From positions 1 through 30,710 of the IMG/VR virus record IMGVR_UViG_3300027801_000104: a DNA stretch of 30,710 nt; one strand, given 5' to 3'. This document shows, piece by piece, positions 3,421 to 27,986 of the stretch. This DNA comes from a virus. The translations under genes and the position numbers were made by a program. The notes beneath the pieces were generated by a model, which had not been told where the DNA came from, searched no databases, and saw nothing but the letters and a program-made list of their open reading frames with translations. Within the stretch, counting starts at the first letter, position 1. The number at the start of each line of letters is the position of its first letter.

Positions 3421-3438
3421 AAGGCTAACGCCTTTTTT
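3421..3438 (+). terminator. Intrinsic terminator AAGGC-TAAC-GCCTT-TTTT
   Basis: A 5-bp stem with a TAAC tetraloop followed by T residues, just downstream of the 44-aa gene. The same bases can form an alternative hairpin, CTAACGCC (3425-3432) with GGCGTTAG (3443-3450), 8 bp perfect with AAC opposite GTT. The terminator therefore overlaps the repeated leader element described next. Confidence 0.6.
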
Positions 3439-3442
3439 AATT

Positions 3443-3499
3443 GGCGTTAGGATGTATTAGGTTTATGTACGGATTAATTAACAACTAAAATATATTAAA
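3443..3499 (+). repeat. Cassette leader element, copy 1 (plus strand)
   Basis: The 57 nt before the ATG at 3500 contain CGTTAGG, then TGTATTAG, then GTACGGATTAATTAA (3467-3481). The same ordered blocks, CGTTAGG...TTATTAA...GTACGGATTATTAA, occur on the minus strand before the genes starting at 27377 and (with changes) 25815. A shared leader before unrelated genes on opposite strands suggests a mobile or repeatedly recombined module. It could carry a promoter, but no clean TAnnTTTG is present. Confidence 0.5.
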
Positions 3500-3886
3500 A
3501 TGGAATTAACAAAAGAACAAGTAGAAGAAATAAACAAAGAATGCCCATACGGACAAGGTGTATTTAGAGAGCCGTTTGGAATACCTAACGACATAAAAGG
3601 ATTAGTAGTATATACTAAATGGGAATCAGGCGGTAGAGGCGGTAGCTGTTGGGATGATGAAAATACAGTTAATGATGAATATTCAAGTGATAGACCTGAT
3701 GATGCTTTTGTAGTGCTAGATAGAGTACTAAAGATACTAAAGCCTGACATTTCTTATTTAGACTTTAAGAAAATTGAAGCATTGAAAAACTCTAACGGGG
3801 AAACGGATTATGGGTGCTACGGTGACTATACAGAAGATACGATAGAATGGATTGAGTTAGAAGACTTAATAGAAGCACTAACGTAG
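3500..3886 (+). CDS. Conserved phage/bacterial hypothetical protein (128 aa)
   Basis: 128 residues, acidic, with no signal or membrane segment. The centre has GLVVYTKWESGGRGGSCWDD followed by AFVVLDRVLKILKPDISYLDFKKIEAL, and the end is YTEDTIEWIELEDLIEAL. I recognise the last two blocks as a pattern common in uncharacterised accessory proteins of phages and mobile elements, but no function is known. The gene sits between a leader repeat (3443-3499) and a trailer repeat that begins at its stop codon (3884-3899), as the minus-strand genes at 25618 and 27126 do. Low CpG content sets it apart from the recombination operon. No shared sequence links its product to those of the other flanked genes. 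Confidence 0.65.
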   Translation: MELTKEQVEEINKECPYGQGVFREPFGIPNDIKGLVVYTKWESGGRGGSCWDDENTVNDEYSSDRPDDAFVVLDRVLKILKPDISYLDFKKIEALKNSNGETDYGCYGDYTEDTIEWIELEDLIEALT

Positions 3887-3899
3887 TATTAAGCCTAAC
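3884..3899 (+). repeat. Cassette trailer element, copy 1, containing GCCTAAC
   Basis: A 16-nt block beginning at the TAG stop of the preceding gene. It differs at two positions from the minus-strand blocks at 25605-25620 and 27109-27124. It ends in GCCTAAC, an exact match to the attC R-box consensus RYYYAAC. A small hairpin GCAAT/ATTGC follows (3900-3916). No matching GTTRRRY box was found before the next gene. Confidence 0.5.
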
Positions 3900-25555: not shown

Positions 25556-25610
25556 GATAACATTCCACAACAGCAACCCGAAAAGGGCAGCCTGTTATTT
25601 CAATGTTAGC
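25556..25610 (-). repeat. attC-like folded site 1 (left border of island)
   Basis: Read on the minus strand: GCTAACATT, an unpaired GAAAT, AACAG, a GC-rich hairpin head with TTTT loop, CTGTT, an unpaired GTGG, AATGTTATC. TAACATT pairs with AATGTTA (7 bp) and AACAG with CTGTT (5 bp), separated by an internal loop. This R box, unpaired spacer, L box order with AAC facing GTT is the fold of integron attC sites. The primary R-box match is partial (RYYYAAC expected). It follows the stop codon of the 65-aa gene. Confidence 0.5.
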
Positions 25611-25620
25611 ATTAATACTA
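25605..25620 (-). repeat. Cassette trailer element, copy 2
   Basis: GTTAGCATTAATACTA on the plus strand. It is identical to 27109-27124 and near-identical to 3884-3899 read on the other strand. It includes the TAG stop of the 65-aa gene, and its GTTAGC end is the outer arm of the attC-like site at 25556-25610. Confidence 0.6.
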
Positions 25621-25815
25621 CAAATCAAATTCTATCATTGGTCTTGTAATATCAAATGTTTCTTTATCGTGTTGTTGATTAAGCGTAACCTCAATCACAT
25701 CGTATTCCATATAAGCCCTACCTCTTTGGTCTAGGCTTATTTCAGCATCGTATTTATCAAGCAACTCTTGTAATTCCTTTCTAAATTCTTGCTCAATCTT
25801 TTGTTCTTCTGTCAT
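25618..25815 (-). CDS. Small acidic hypothetical protein (65 aa)
   Basis: Start set at 25815 (MTEEQKIEQEFRKELQELLD); the frame is open to 25851 but those codons fall in the leader repeat. The chain is a Glu/Gln-rich helix followed by YDAEISLDQRGRAYMEYDVI and a strand-rich end with an acidic last residue pair. The middle block resembles small uncharacterised phage proteins (eLLdkY.aEI..d..gr.y). No cysteine or membrane segment. It is flanked by a leader repeat (25823-25893) and by a trailer repeat plus attC-like site, the same arrangement as the 27126 gene. Function unknown. Confidence 0.6.
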   Translation of the reverse strand: MTEEQKIEQEFRKELQELLDKYDAEISLDQRGRAYMEYDVIEVTLNQQHDKETFDITRPMIEFDL

Positions 25816-25822
25816 ATTTTTT

Positions 25823-25893
25823 AGTTTAATAATCCGCACTAATGCTAACAAGTATTAATAACAACCAAAAAGGCAGTTATTACACTTATCATT
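25823..25893 (-). repeat. Leader/hairpin repeat copy A
   Basis: 71 nt that differ from copy B (27393-27462) at five positions, one of them a gap. Minus strand: AATAACTGCC, loop TTTTT, GGTTGTTATT forms the core, extended by AAGTG-TAATAAC against GTTATTAATACTT, then GTTAGCATTAGTGCGGATTATTAAAC before the start codon of the 65-aa gene. The loop differs between copies while the stem is kept, as expected if the fold matters. Confidence 0.7.
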
Positions 25894-25925: not shown

Positions 25926-26642
25926 TTATGCGTTTACTCGGTCGGTTGCAATATTAAAATAGTTTTCGTCCATTTCAATTCCTATTCCGTTTCTATTTAA
26001 GTTTTTACAGGCAACTAAAGTACTTCCAGAACCCATTGTAAAATCTAAAACTGTTTCGTTTTCGTTGGTGTAAGTTTTTACTAAATATTCCATTAAATCT
26101 AATGGTTTTTGTGTTGGGTGTAATTTTCCTTTTTGTACACTTGTATTAAACTTCTGTATGGTTGTTGGGTACTTACCTTTTAAAACCCTAGTTTCTCCAT
26201 CGTGGCTAGTCATACTACTACTACCACTTTTACTTGCGTTTTTTCTAGTATATGTTCTTGGTTTTTCTCTTGGTGTAAATTGTGGGTTGTATGTTGTTTT
26301 ACCTTTTCCAAATATACTTATAATTTCGTGATTACTCATAGGTCTATATTTTGCATAACCGTGTCCAACTGGTAGTGTTTTGTGAAATATCCAATCATAT
26401 TTAAAAGATTTTATATTACTCATTCTTAAAGCAGAACTAAAAGGCTCAGAACCAAATAAAACTATTGCACCATTAGGCTTTATAATTCTATTTAATTGCT
26501 CCCACATCAATTCAAAATCAATTACACTATCCCATTTACAGGCAGTAGTTCCGTATGGTGGGTCTGTAATTATTGCATCAATACTATTATCTTTAATTGT
26601 TTTCATAACCTCCAAGCAATTACCTAATCTTAAATCTATCAT
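25926..26642 (-). CDS. Beta-class DNA methyltransferase (N6-adenine or N4-cytosine)
   Basis: 238 residues. TDPPYG (26-31) is catalytic motif IV (DPPY) and LDFTMGSGSTLVA (199-211) is the cofactor-binding motif I; the order IV before I, with HPTQKP (175-180) and GIEMDENYF near the end, defines the beta class. It methylates the exocyclic amino group of adenine (N6) or cytosine (N4) from S-adenosylmethionine. Gly/Ser-rich residues 130-150 may be the target-recognition loop. No restriction enzyme is next to it, so it probably shields phage DNA or marks it. The gene is CpG-poor, unlike the phage core, and lies between 13-bp inverted repeats inside the accessory island. Start at 26642 gives the canonical IDLRLGNCLEVM. 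Confidence 0.9.
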   Translation of the reverse strand: MIDLRLGNCLEVMKTIKDNSIDAIITDPPYGTTACKWDSVIDFELMWEQLNRIIKPNGAIVLFGSEPFSSALRMSNIKSFKYDWIFHKTLPVGHGYAKYRPMSNHEIISIFGKGKTTYNPQFTPREKPRTYTRKNASKSGSSSMTSHDGETRVLKGKYPTTIQKFNTSVQKGKLHPTQKPLDLMEYLVKTYTNENETVLDFTMGSGSTLVACKNLNRNGIGIEMDENYFNIATDRVNA

Positions 26643-26697: not shown

Positions 26698-26830
26698 TGC
26701 AACAACGTGTATAATTTATTGCTACTAATCGCTATTTTACCAAGTTATTTTTATCGTTTATACTATTCTATTATTTATTAATTTCAGTGTCTTATATCGC
26801 AACAAACCATACACAAATAAGTTATGTGCA
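26698..26830 (-). repeat. Large attC-like folded site 3 (133 nt)
   Basis: Minus strand: TGCACATAAC, TTATTT, GTGTAT, a long AT-rich middle with partly pairing GTTGCGATAT and ATAGCGATTAGTAGCAA, then ATACAC, GTTGTTGCA. Outer TGCA and AAC pair with TGCA and GTT, inner GTGTAT pairs with ATACAC. Length and layout recall Vibrio-type attC repeats. It fills most of the 192-nt gap between the 61-aa membrane protein gene and the methyltransferase gene; no other gene is seen there. Confidence 0.4.
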
Positions 26831-26834
26831 ATGG

Positions 26835-27020
26835 CTAAATTATACCGTAATGTTTAAATATCTGCACCATAGCGTAACCAATCACAAACAAAGGCACTAT
26901 CTTACATATTGCCTTTAATATAAATTCAACTAATGCGTTTGGGGCAGTAAAATTCATAAATAATATTAGTGTTGCCATTGCTAATACTGCGAAGTTGTAA
27001 GTTAATTCAATTGTATTCAT
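26835..27020 (-). CDS. Small two-helix membrane protein (61 aa)
   Basis: 61 residues: NTIELTYNFAVLAMATLILF (first membrane segment about 8-22), MNFTAPNALVEFILKAICK as a loop, and IVPLFVIGYAMVQIFKHYGI as a second segment. No signal-peptidase site or charged tail. Such proteins in accessory loci are often toxins, holin-like or superinfection-exclusion factors, but nothing here decides. It stands alone between two attC-like sites (27061-27114 upstream, 26698-26830 downstream), the strongest cassette-like arrangement in the island. CpG-poor. Confidence 0.55.
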   Translation of the reverse strand: MNTIELTYNFAVLAMATLILFMNFTAPNALVEFILKAICKIVPLFVIGYAMVQIFKHYGII

Positions 27021-27060
27021 TTCGTTTCATTTAATAGTTTGTGCTGTTAAAACCGCCAAA

Positions 27061-27114
27061 GCACATAACACGGTATAAAAAACATTAAAACGATTTTTTA
27101 TACAAACCGTTAGC
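27061..27114 (-). repeat. attC-like folded site 2
   Basis: Minus strand: GCTAACGGTTT, GTATAAAAAA, an 11-nt loop, TTTTTTATAC, CGT, GTTATGTGC. The ten-base arms pair perfectly, outer AAC faces GTT, and the bases between are unpaired and unequal on the two sides, like the spacer of attC sites. The right half recurs at 28002-28024 (TTTTTTATATACCGTGTTGTGCTTC). Site follows the stop of the 83-aa gene by 11 nt. Confidence 0.5.
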
Positions 27115-27124
27115 ATTAATACTA
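27109..27124 (-). repeat. Cassette trailer element, copy 3
   Basis: GTTAGCATTAATACTA, identical to 25605-25620. It directly follows the TAA of the 83-aa gene (27126-27128) and forms the left arm of the attC-like site at 27061-27114. Confidence 0.6.
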
Positions 27125-27125
27125 A

Positions 27126-27377
27126 TTATTCGTGCCAATCTGCAATAACTTTACTTCCTTTCATTACACTTATAGTACAAGGTTCTAAATTACTAATAGT
27201 CCCAGTTTCATTATAATCTAAATCTAACCTGTAAATTTCATCAGCAGCTCCACCTACATTGGCGTACACCACTTCTCCTTCTGGTGTTTCACCTTTAAAC
27301 ATAAAAGTATATTTGTAATAATGCCTAAACTTTAGTTCTACATTACCATACTTTTTTAAAATATCTTCTTTTGTCAT
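27126..27377 (-). CDS. Small hypothetical protein (83 aa)
   Basis: 83 residues. TKEDILKKYGNVELKFRHYY is helical then beta; FMFKGETPEGEVVYANVGGA has a Gly-rich turn; LDLDYNETGTISNLEPCTIS and KGSKVIADWHE end the chain. One cysteine, no signal or membrane segment, slightly acidic. I do not recognise a family, though VVYANVGG-type strands suggest a small beta-barrel. The gene stands between a leader repeat (27393-27462) and a trailer repeat plus attC-like site 2, the same arrangement as the 25618 gene although the proteins are unrelated. Confidence 0.55.
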   Translation of the reverse strand: MTKEDILKKYGNVELKFRHYYKYTFMFKGETPEGEVVYANVGGAADEIYRLDLDYNETGTISNLEPCTISVMKGSKVIADWHE

Positions 27378-27392
27378 TCTATTTAATTTTTA

Positions 27393-27462
27393 AGTTTAAT
27401 AATCCGTACAAATGCTAACAAGTATTAATAACAACCTAACGGCAGTTATTACACTTATCATT
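27393..27462 (-). repeat. Leader/hairpin repeat copy B
   Basis: Minus strand: AATAACTGCC, GTTA loop, GGTTGTTATT as core, with outer AATG...CATT and AAGTG...TACTT arms, then GTTAGCATTTGTACGGATTATTAAAC before the start of the 83-aa gene. It contains GTTAGGT, an exact attC R-box match (GTTRRRY). It begins at the stop codon of the 82-aa gene. See copy A, 25823-25893. Confidence 0.7.
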
Positions 27463-27709
27463 ATAAAACACCGCTACAGTCTTCGCACTCTTTCATTAGT
27501 AATTCTGTTGGAAATCTATCTTCTATTTTGTGATTGCATTGGCATTTTATAACATCATCTAAAACACCATTATTAACGCGGTTCATACCAGCTTTAAACG
27601 CCTCTTCAAATATTAAATCAAAGTGAGGGTTGTTTATTCTTGTATATCCATCGTCATCATAAAGTGAACGCCTAATTTCTGTTAATTTACTTTTGCTAAT
27701 TATCTTCAT
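27461..27709 (-). CDS. Small hypothetical protein with Cys-rich end (82 aa)
   Basis: 82 residues. The first 50 are helical and charged (KSKLTEIRRSLYDDDGYTRI, HFDLIFEEAFKAGMNRVNNG); the end has VIKCQCNHKIEDRFPTELLM and CEDCSGVL. CxC and CxxC with a nearby His may form a small zinc site. No known family. It lies 37 nt downstream of the 79-aa gene without a large folded site between them, only a short ATAAC...GTTAT pair, and ends inside leader repeat B. CpG-poor. Confidence 0.55.
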   Translation of the reverse strand: MKIISKSKLTEIRRSLYDDDGYTRINNPHFDLIFEEAFKAGMNRVNNGVLDDVIKCQCNHKIEDRFPTELLMKECEDCSGVL

Positions 27710-27746: not shown

Positions 27747-27986
27747 TTATGCTTCATTTAAAGCACGTTTATACATTTCTTCTAATTCATCAAAGAAAGA
27801 TTCTCCTTTTGTTGTCCTCATTGACTTATTGTATTGGTTCACATAAACCACAAAACCATTATCATCAATCCTTTCATAAGTATCAATAACATCTCTACCT
27901 TTTTCTGTATTAGTCCAAGTAATATAAGTCCTTGGTTTTGTTACTGTGAATACTTTCAAATTCTTTACTTGTTGTATAAATTTCAT
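27747..27986 (-). CDS. Small hypothetical protein (79 aa)
   Basis: Start set at 27986 (MKFIQQVKNLKVFTVTKPRT); the frame is open to 28049 but that part lies in the attC-like site at 28002-28054. Middle: YITWTNTEKGRDVIDTYERI; then DDNGFVVYVNQYNKSMRTTK, and a helical end ELEEMYKRALNEA. Basic, no cysteine, no membrane segment. I do not recognise a family. It is the first gene of the CpG-poor island when read in the direction of transcription. Its stop lies in GCATAAC, as does the stop of the methyltransferase gene. Confidence 0.5.
   Translation of the reverse strand: MKFIQQVKNLKVFTVTKPRTYITWTNTEKGRDVIDTYERIDDNGFVVYVNQYNKSMRTTKGESFFDELEEMYKRALNEA

Follow-up and report, generated by a model that had tools for sequence, protein, structure and literature searches.

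A probable integron-like gene cassette system of Bacteroidota phages, with orphan cassettes in a tailed-phage genome

The locus studied here raises the question of why unrelated genes on both strands of one phage genome lie inside the same flanking sequences. The DNA analysed, called the window throughout, is a 30,710-base IMG/VR virus record from a tailed phage whose relatives are of flavobacterial type. A preliminary description had noticed one plus-strand and two minus-strand genes set between a common leader and a common trailer, and had argued that whole units move, as opposed to local duplication. From sequence comparison, we consider it likely that Bacteroidota phages have an integron-like recombination system, that these units are its gene cassettes and that the copies in the window are orphans.

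Results

Repeated gene units on both strands of the window

We find exactly three copies of each flank in the window, far above chance. The trailer TAGTATTAANSCTAAC (3884-3899 on the plus strand, 25605-25620 and 27109-27124 on the minus strand) is expected 0.01 times, the leader GTRCGGATTAWTWAA (3467-3481 plus, 25825-25839 and 27395-27409 minus) 0.1 times, and none of 100 shuffles gets to three. Chance AT-rich similarity as the source of the repeats was ruled out by these counts; null tests on end-box covariation, the trailer-first search and array counts, given below, also stand against it. The three flanked proteins are unrelated, as had been noted, and have no convincing match in Pfam or PHROG. 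The features of the window are as follows.

3425-3450, plus strand: hairpin linker ahead of the plus-strand unit, containing a GTT box (CTAACGCC-TTTTTTAATT-GGCGTTAG; placed by its fold and by a position like that of linkers at other loci)
3457-3499, plus strand: leader of the unit (degenerate arm TTAGGTTTAT, then GTACGGATTAATTAA, an A-rich stretch and ATG)
3500-3886, plus strand: cassette gene, 128 aa (no convincing Pfam or PHROG match)
3884-3899, plus strand: trailer of the unit with the stop codon embedded (TAGTATTAAGCCTAAC; R''-like box GCCTAAC)
25605-25849, minus strand: cassette unit, gene 25618-25815, 65-aa protein (GTTAGCATT-AGTGCGGATTA...gene...TAGTATTAATGCTAAC)
25926-26642, minus strand: N6/N4 DNA methyltransferase gene within the array, typical cassette cargo, with less clear end boxes
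26821-27069, minus strand: cassette unit, gene 26835-27020, 61 aa (GTTATGTGC...gene...GCACATAAC)
27070-27108, minus strand: attC-like hairpin linker between two units (GGTTTGTATAAAAAATCGTTTTAATGTTTTTTATACCGT), nearly identical to linkers in Polaribacter phage P12002L
27109-27419, minus strand: cassette unit, gene 27126-27377, 83 aa (GTTAGCATT-TGTACGGATTA...gene...TAGTATTAATGCTAAC)
27420-27460, minus strand: hairpin linker upstream of the preceding unit (GTGTAATAAC...GTTATTAATAC), of a type also found in L004, L011, L012 and L015
27461-27986, minus strand: GTT/AAC boxes flank two more small genes of the array, 27461-27709 and 27747-27986 (the second is GTTGTGCTTC...GAAGCATAAC)

The minus-strand units form a small array at 25.6-28.0 kb that holds more cassette-like units than the two first noticed, with at least three boxed units and their linkers. 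On the plus strand, the first half of the leader (GTTAGGATGTATTAGGTTTAT) is degenerate relative to its own trailer (AAGCCTAAC), and the best-pairing arm is TTAGGTTTAT at about 3457-3466. A 74% identical homologue of the 3500-3886 gene is present in another virus without the leader and trailer flanks. In the nearest relative found, whose terminase is 97% identical, the approximately 1.9 kb after the terminase has no similarity to the window array. Relatives of the window's large terminase are encoded in at least 598 viral contigs (L053-L130 among them). A C5-cytosine methylase-like gene (PF00145, phrog_363) lies outside the cassettes at 311-949.

No recombinase or integrase gene was found in the 30.7-kb window contig, and for this reason we infer the mobility of the window's own copies. 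With two or more attC-like sites and no integrase gene, the window has the composition of a CALIN, and we read its units as probable orphan cassettes of an integron-like phage system.

A leader and trailer family across viruses

The leader is not confined to these three loci. Its pattern GTTAGCATTNGTRCGGATTA matches in 49 viral contigs, a looser version gives at least 119 matches in viral contigs, and the leader or close variants are present in the isolated phages Tenacibaculum phage JQ, Muminvirus and Nonlabens P12024S. Nearly all leader matches are followed, about 21 nt on, by the ATG of a differing gene that ends exactly at TAGTATTAATGCTAAC. In cellular sequence the leader is essentially absent: a 257-Gb genome collection holds two true matches, both within phage-like contigs, and 394 of 395 Bacteroidia genomes hold none.

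Among 82 units having both ends, the 6-nt core adjoining GTT takes 20 forms, and the trailer core is the exact reverse complement of the unit's own leader core in 66; shuffles give a mean of 13 and at most 23. Covariation extends to the next variable position (R/Y), with A-T in 65 units, G-C in 11, G-T in 5 and A-C in 1. Starting from the trailer instead, we find a matching GTT box upstream in 105 of 215 cases, compared with 2.7% for other cores. The stop codon is the TAG of the trailer in 79 of the 82 units, some of which carry hybrid end boxes. By sequence, each unit consists of a single gene with a GTT box at one end and an AAC box at the other, and the variable 6-nt cores of the two boxes are reverse complements of each other. 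Transposons with terminal inverted repeats, or MITEs, were considered and rejected: such elements have terminal repeats of one family and a target-site duplication, whereas here the end cores vary (20 types), junctions lie at fixed AAC boxes and inspection of the listed unit flanks revealed no target-site duplication.

Linkers and module boundaries

Hairpin linkers of attC-like geometry separate successive units. Their usual order is AAC-5 nt-stem-loop-stem-3 nt-GTT, and the loop is often TCGTTTTAATG. Linkers of Polaribacter phage P12002L, whose attC sites IntI1 can recombine (PMC9892861), resemble those of the window, which counts in favour of the integron-like reading. Together, the covariation of the end boxes and this geometry provide the complementary R''/R' boxes and the L''/L' stem that lie between cassettes of integrons. 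The preliminary description had called GCCTAAC an exact R-box match; the comparison points to the right kind of system, but the enzyme encoded next to such arrays is not IntI (see below).

The proposal that whole units move is supported by other viruses, in which the flanks surround different genes and the same gene recurs at 89-100% identity in different surroundings, with homology stopping at the end boxes of the unit. Linkers recur between differing genes too, and there homology ends at AAC or GTT. Among 25 pairs of same-gene units at 70-100% identity, the downstream linker is kept in none and the upstream linker in about 7. A one-crossover model, in which the cassette is linker plus unit, predicts a kept upstream linker and is contradicted by the other 18 pairs, so exchange at GTT must occur too.

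Could genes instead be swapped by homologous, annealase-type recombination in the conserved leader and trailer, with no dedicated enzyme? The leader (about 24 bp) and trailer (16 bp) are common to the units, some units have hybrid end boxes, and phages encode RecT or exonuclease modules, with RecT in Polaribacter phage Freya. However, modules break exactly at AAC and GTT. The 6-nt cores there differ and just 3 nt are common to the junctions, a sign of site-specific recombination, and the array ends at a fixed site next to a recombinase. We therefore regard homologous swapping as very unlikely.

A further reading takes the repeats as expression signals (translation start and stop, RNA-processing stems), like the start-associated sequences of cluster K mycobacteriophages, and not as marks of mobile units. 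The tight coupling to start and stop codons, the conserved AGTRCGGATTA-A-rich-ATG leader and the G-T pairs on the top strand all suit it. In the phage linkers the wobble pairs are indeed on the top strand, whereas the Vibrio sites examined show the reverse. We do not take this bias as decisive for folding of RNA or of the top strand, since most of the G-T excess comes from a single recurring position with G in the 5' arm and T in the 3' arm. Expression signals do not explain why whole units move, why arrays have an attI-like junction or how isolates differ, and we give that reading hardly any credence. The leader AGTRCGGATTA of a mobile cassette may have a second role as an expression signal.

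In three suggestive cases, genes seem to lie inside a linker stem-loop, between L''-like and L'-like arms (L293 39530-39664, which is P12002L gp57, L031 and L229); their inner leader and trailer motifs are similar.

A recombinase and its attachment site at the array end

In several of 100 cassette viruses, a tyrosine recombinase of about 267 aa is encoded at the end of the array. Its clade spans at least 80 viral contigs, some above 300 kb, and a recognisable terminase is also present in 18 of 50 records with a clade recombinase. Directly upstream of the recombinase gene is a conserved site, AAC-TATTATATAT, found in 75 of 80 loci by a motif loose enough to match 15% of control windows, so that the weight rests on position-specific conservation and on array counts. 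The last cassette abuts the site. To the left of its AAC, information drops to near-random sequence that can often be read as a cassette trailer, TAGYATTN6AAC, and the AAC has a matching GTT partner in 51 of 66 cases (control 1.8%). Gene units bounded by inverted repeats number 230 in 172 kb upstream, compared with 9 in 210 kb downstream and 8 in shuffles, and the loop CGTTTTAATG occurs 65 times upstream of the recombinase and never downstream. In four sets of loci (L325/L326/L328, L347/L348, L323/L330 and L339/L342) recombinase and site are 97-100% identical, yet the cassettes differ up to the AAC. Arrays end at AAC-TATTATATAT upstream of a XerA/IntI-like recombinase in a large clade of viruses, or at AAC-ACCCCTATAAC in Freya, an attI-type arrangement in which cassettes join at a site beside the integrase gene. 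Empty units without a gene, GTT-core-TCGTTTTAATG-core'-AAC, adjoin the attachment site in L297, L310, L330 and L291.

The phage recombinase is closest to archaeal Xer/XerA and to IntI4 and falls under every curated cut-off, scoring 151 bits with the IntI model TIGR02249 (cut-off 265). The IntI-specific region is absent: IntI4 residues ~181-259 correspond to just ~31 residues in the phage enzyme. A predicted structure of moderate confidence (pLDDT 83, pTM 0.61) agrees with the sequence assignment. Freya integrase is 36% identical to the large-virus clade, and the recombinase tree, in which the cellular row C_L399 has a reading-frame error and is to be disregarded, gives no secure grouping of the Freya, Leef and Ingeline enzymes with that clade. 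Twenty cellular recombinases with 40-49% identity to the phage enzyme were examined, and neither an attachment site nor an array accompanies 18 of them. One bacterial chromosome (L399; G366 contig 1, 4.13 Mb) has an attachment site, a 47% identical recombinase and an abutting cytosine methylase gene.

These data bear on the reading that the units are ordinary integron cassettes (CALIN) acquired from bacterial hosts and moved by a host IntI. The hairpins are attC-like and the boxes R-like, and Qi et al. 2023 (PMC9892861) describe CALINs in phages, Polaribacter phage P12002L included; they tested IntI1 on two attC sites from P12002L, and IntI1 can recombine attC sites of this phage. Against a host origin, the leader is essentially a viral sequence, a true IntI was detected in 1 of 295 Bacteroidia genomes sampled and had no array beside it, no IntI passes the curated cut-off in any of the 100 cassette viruses, and the arrays adjoin a phage non-IntI recombinase with its own site. 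We consider host integron cassettes an improbable source.

Cassette differences between near-identical phage isolates

The authors of PMC8776804, who deposited ten isolates of Polaribacter phage Freya, take its integrase as a sign of temperate life; the main text, as far as searched, makes no mention of insertions, deletions or integrons. We compared seven genomes (isolates 1, 2, 5, 6, 8, 9 and 10). They are 99.99-100% identical over 43-47 kb, and the sole differences are cassettes upstream of the integrase. Relative to Freya_10, a stretch of 304 bp with one gene is missing from Freya_9 and one of 875 bp within the array from Freya_8, and Freya_1, _2 and _5 lack longer blocks that end at the attachment site; each of these differences may be a loss or a gain. 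In Freya_6, new sequence of 441 bp, carrying two genes, stands in place of 3,168 bp, and Freya_6 has sequence that only Freya_7 shares. At each of the six distinct junctions, AAC is followed directly by ACCCCTATAAC, which is the site, or by a further linker. Near-identical isolates differ by precise loss or gain of entire cassettes, every junction lying at AAC, as the movement of whole units would have it.

Danklef, a related phage, has a broken integrase ORF, of which a 132-bp CDS is left (L420, L421); its isolates 1 and 5 show no difference along 17 kb that take in the array (one comparison). An array unchanged beside a broken integrase is suggestive of a natural loss-of-function contrast to Freya.

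Cassette cargo

Most of the 82 distinct cassette proteins have unknown function. Ten are N6/N4 DNA methylases, and there are single matches to Mom, a C5-methylase, an RNA ligase and endonuclease VII. The cargo probably serves phage-host conflict, and the methylases among it are consistent with protection of phage DNA.

Discussion

Based on these data, we propose a mechanism in which the recombinase would bind the paired boxes and the linker arms. The substrate would probably be a folded single-stranded hairpin, as in integrons, although the top-strand wobble pairs described above are a point against; strand exchange would take place at the AAC/GTT box. Modules of linker plus gene unit could in this way leave the array, enter at the attI-like site and be reshuffled. 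The window virus may have taken up its cassettes through a recombinase acting in trans, or one encoded in a missing part of its genome.

On balance we also favour a broader proposal, that Bacteroidota phages, from ~30-kb siphophages to contigs above 300 kb, run a common virus-only cassette economy. In this economy a non-IntI recombinase specific to phages, acting at a site of its own, would assemble, excise and insert anti-host cassettes within a single bloom or enrichment, and the "integrase" held as a mark of lysogeny would be (also) a cassette integrase. If true, there is an integron-like system that belongs to viruses, not hosts, and uses a different recombinase class; the shuffling of small unknown genes and DNA methyltransferases among flavobacterial phages is explained; and phage integrases held as evidence of lysogeny (PMC8776804) would have to be re-read. 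Freya offers a cultivated system for a direct test of cassette origin and movement, an open question for integrons.

Phage CALINs were already known. In the open-licence literature, preprints excluded, we found no account of the Freya rearrangements or the leader/trailer family, nor of a cassette recombinase specific to phages and the site it uses; what appears new is the virus-encoded recombinase, the site and the isolate evidence.

Comparison with known systems

XerA/XerC-like tyrosine recombinases are known for chromosome-dimer resolution. They are the best sequence and fold matches of the phage recombinase (4a8e, 5hxy), whose clade, by contrast, adjoins cassette arrays. The start-associated sequences of cluster K mycobacteriophages (SAS/ESAS; PMC3203893) resemble the leaders in being conserved inverted-repeat sequences ahead of unrelated phage genes. 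As described, they have no trailers, cassette boundaries or associated recombinase, and mobility was not shown for them; their 13-bp GGGATAGGAGCCC is not what stands at the starts here, and the motif AGTRCGGATTA is unrelated to it. Phage CALINs share with our units the hairpin linker type, methyltransferase cargo and phages without an integrase, whereas a dedicated phage recombinase, an attachment site, the leader/trailer family and natural cassette exchange are not described in the available part of PMC9892861.

The closest comparison is with the integron (IntI, attI, attC). In both, a cassette holds a single gene and has complementary end boxes that finish in GTT/AAC, hairpins lie between the genes, and the array adjoins a tyrosine recombinase and a fixed attachment site next to which insertion occurs. 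The phage system differs in that its recombinase is XerA-like and has no IntI-specific region, its cassette genes point toward the recombinase and are co-directional with the recombinase gene, its end inverted repeats reach ~14 bp, it has a conserved leader and a stop-codon trailer, and it is virus-borne. Judged by sequence, it stands apart from integrons in its integrase, and with them in its attachment site, attC-like sites and cassette movement.
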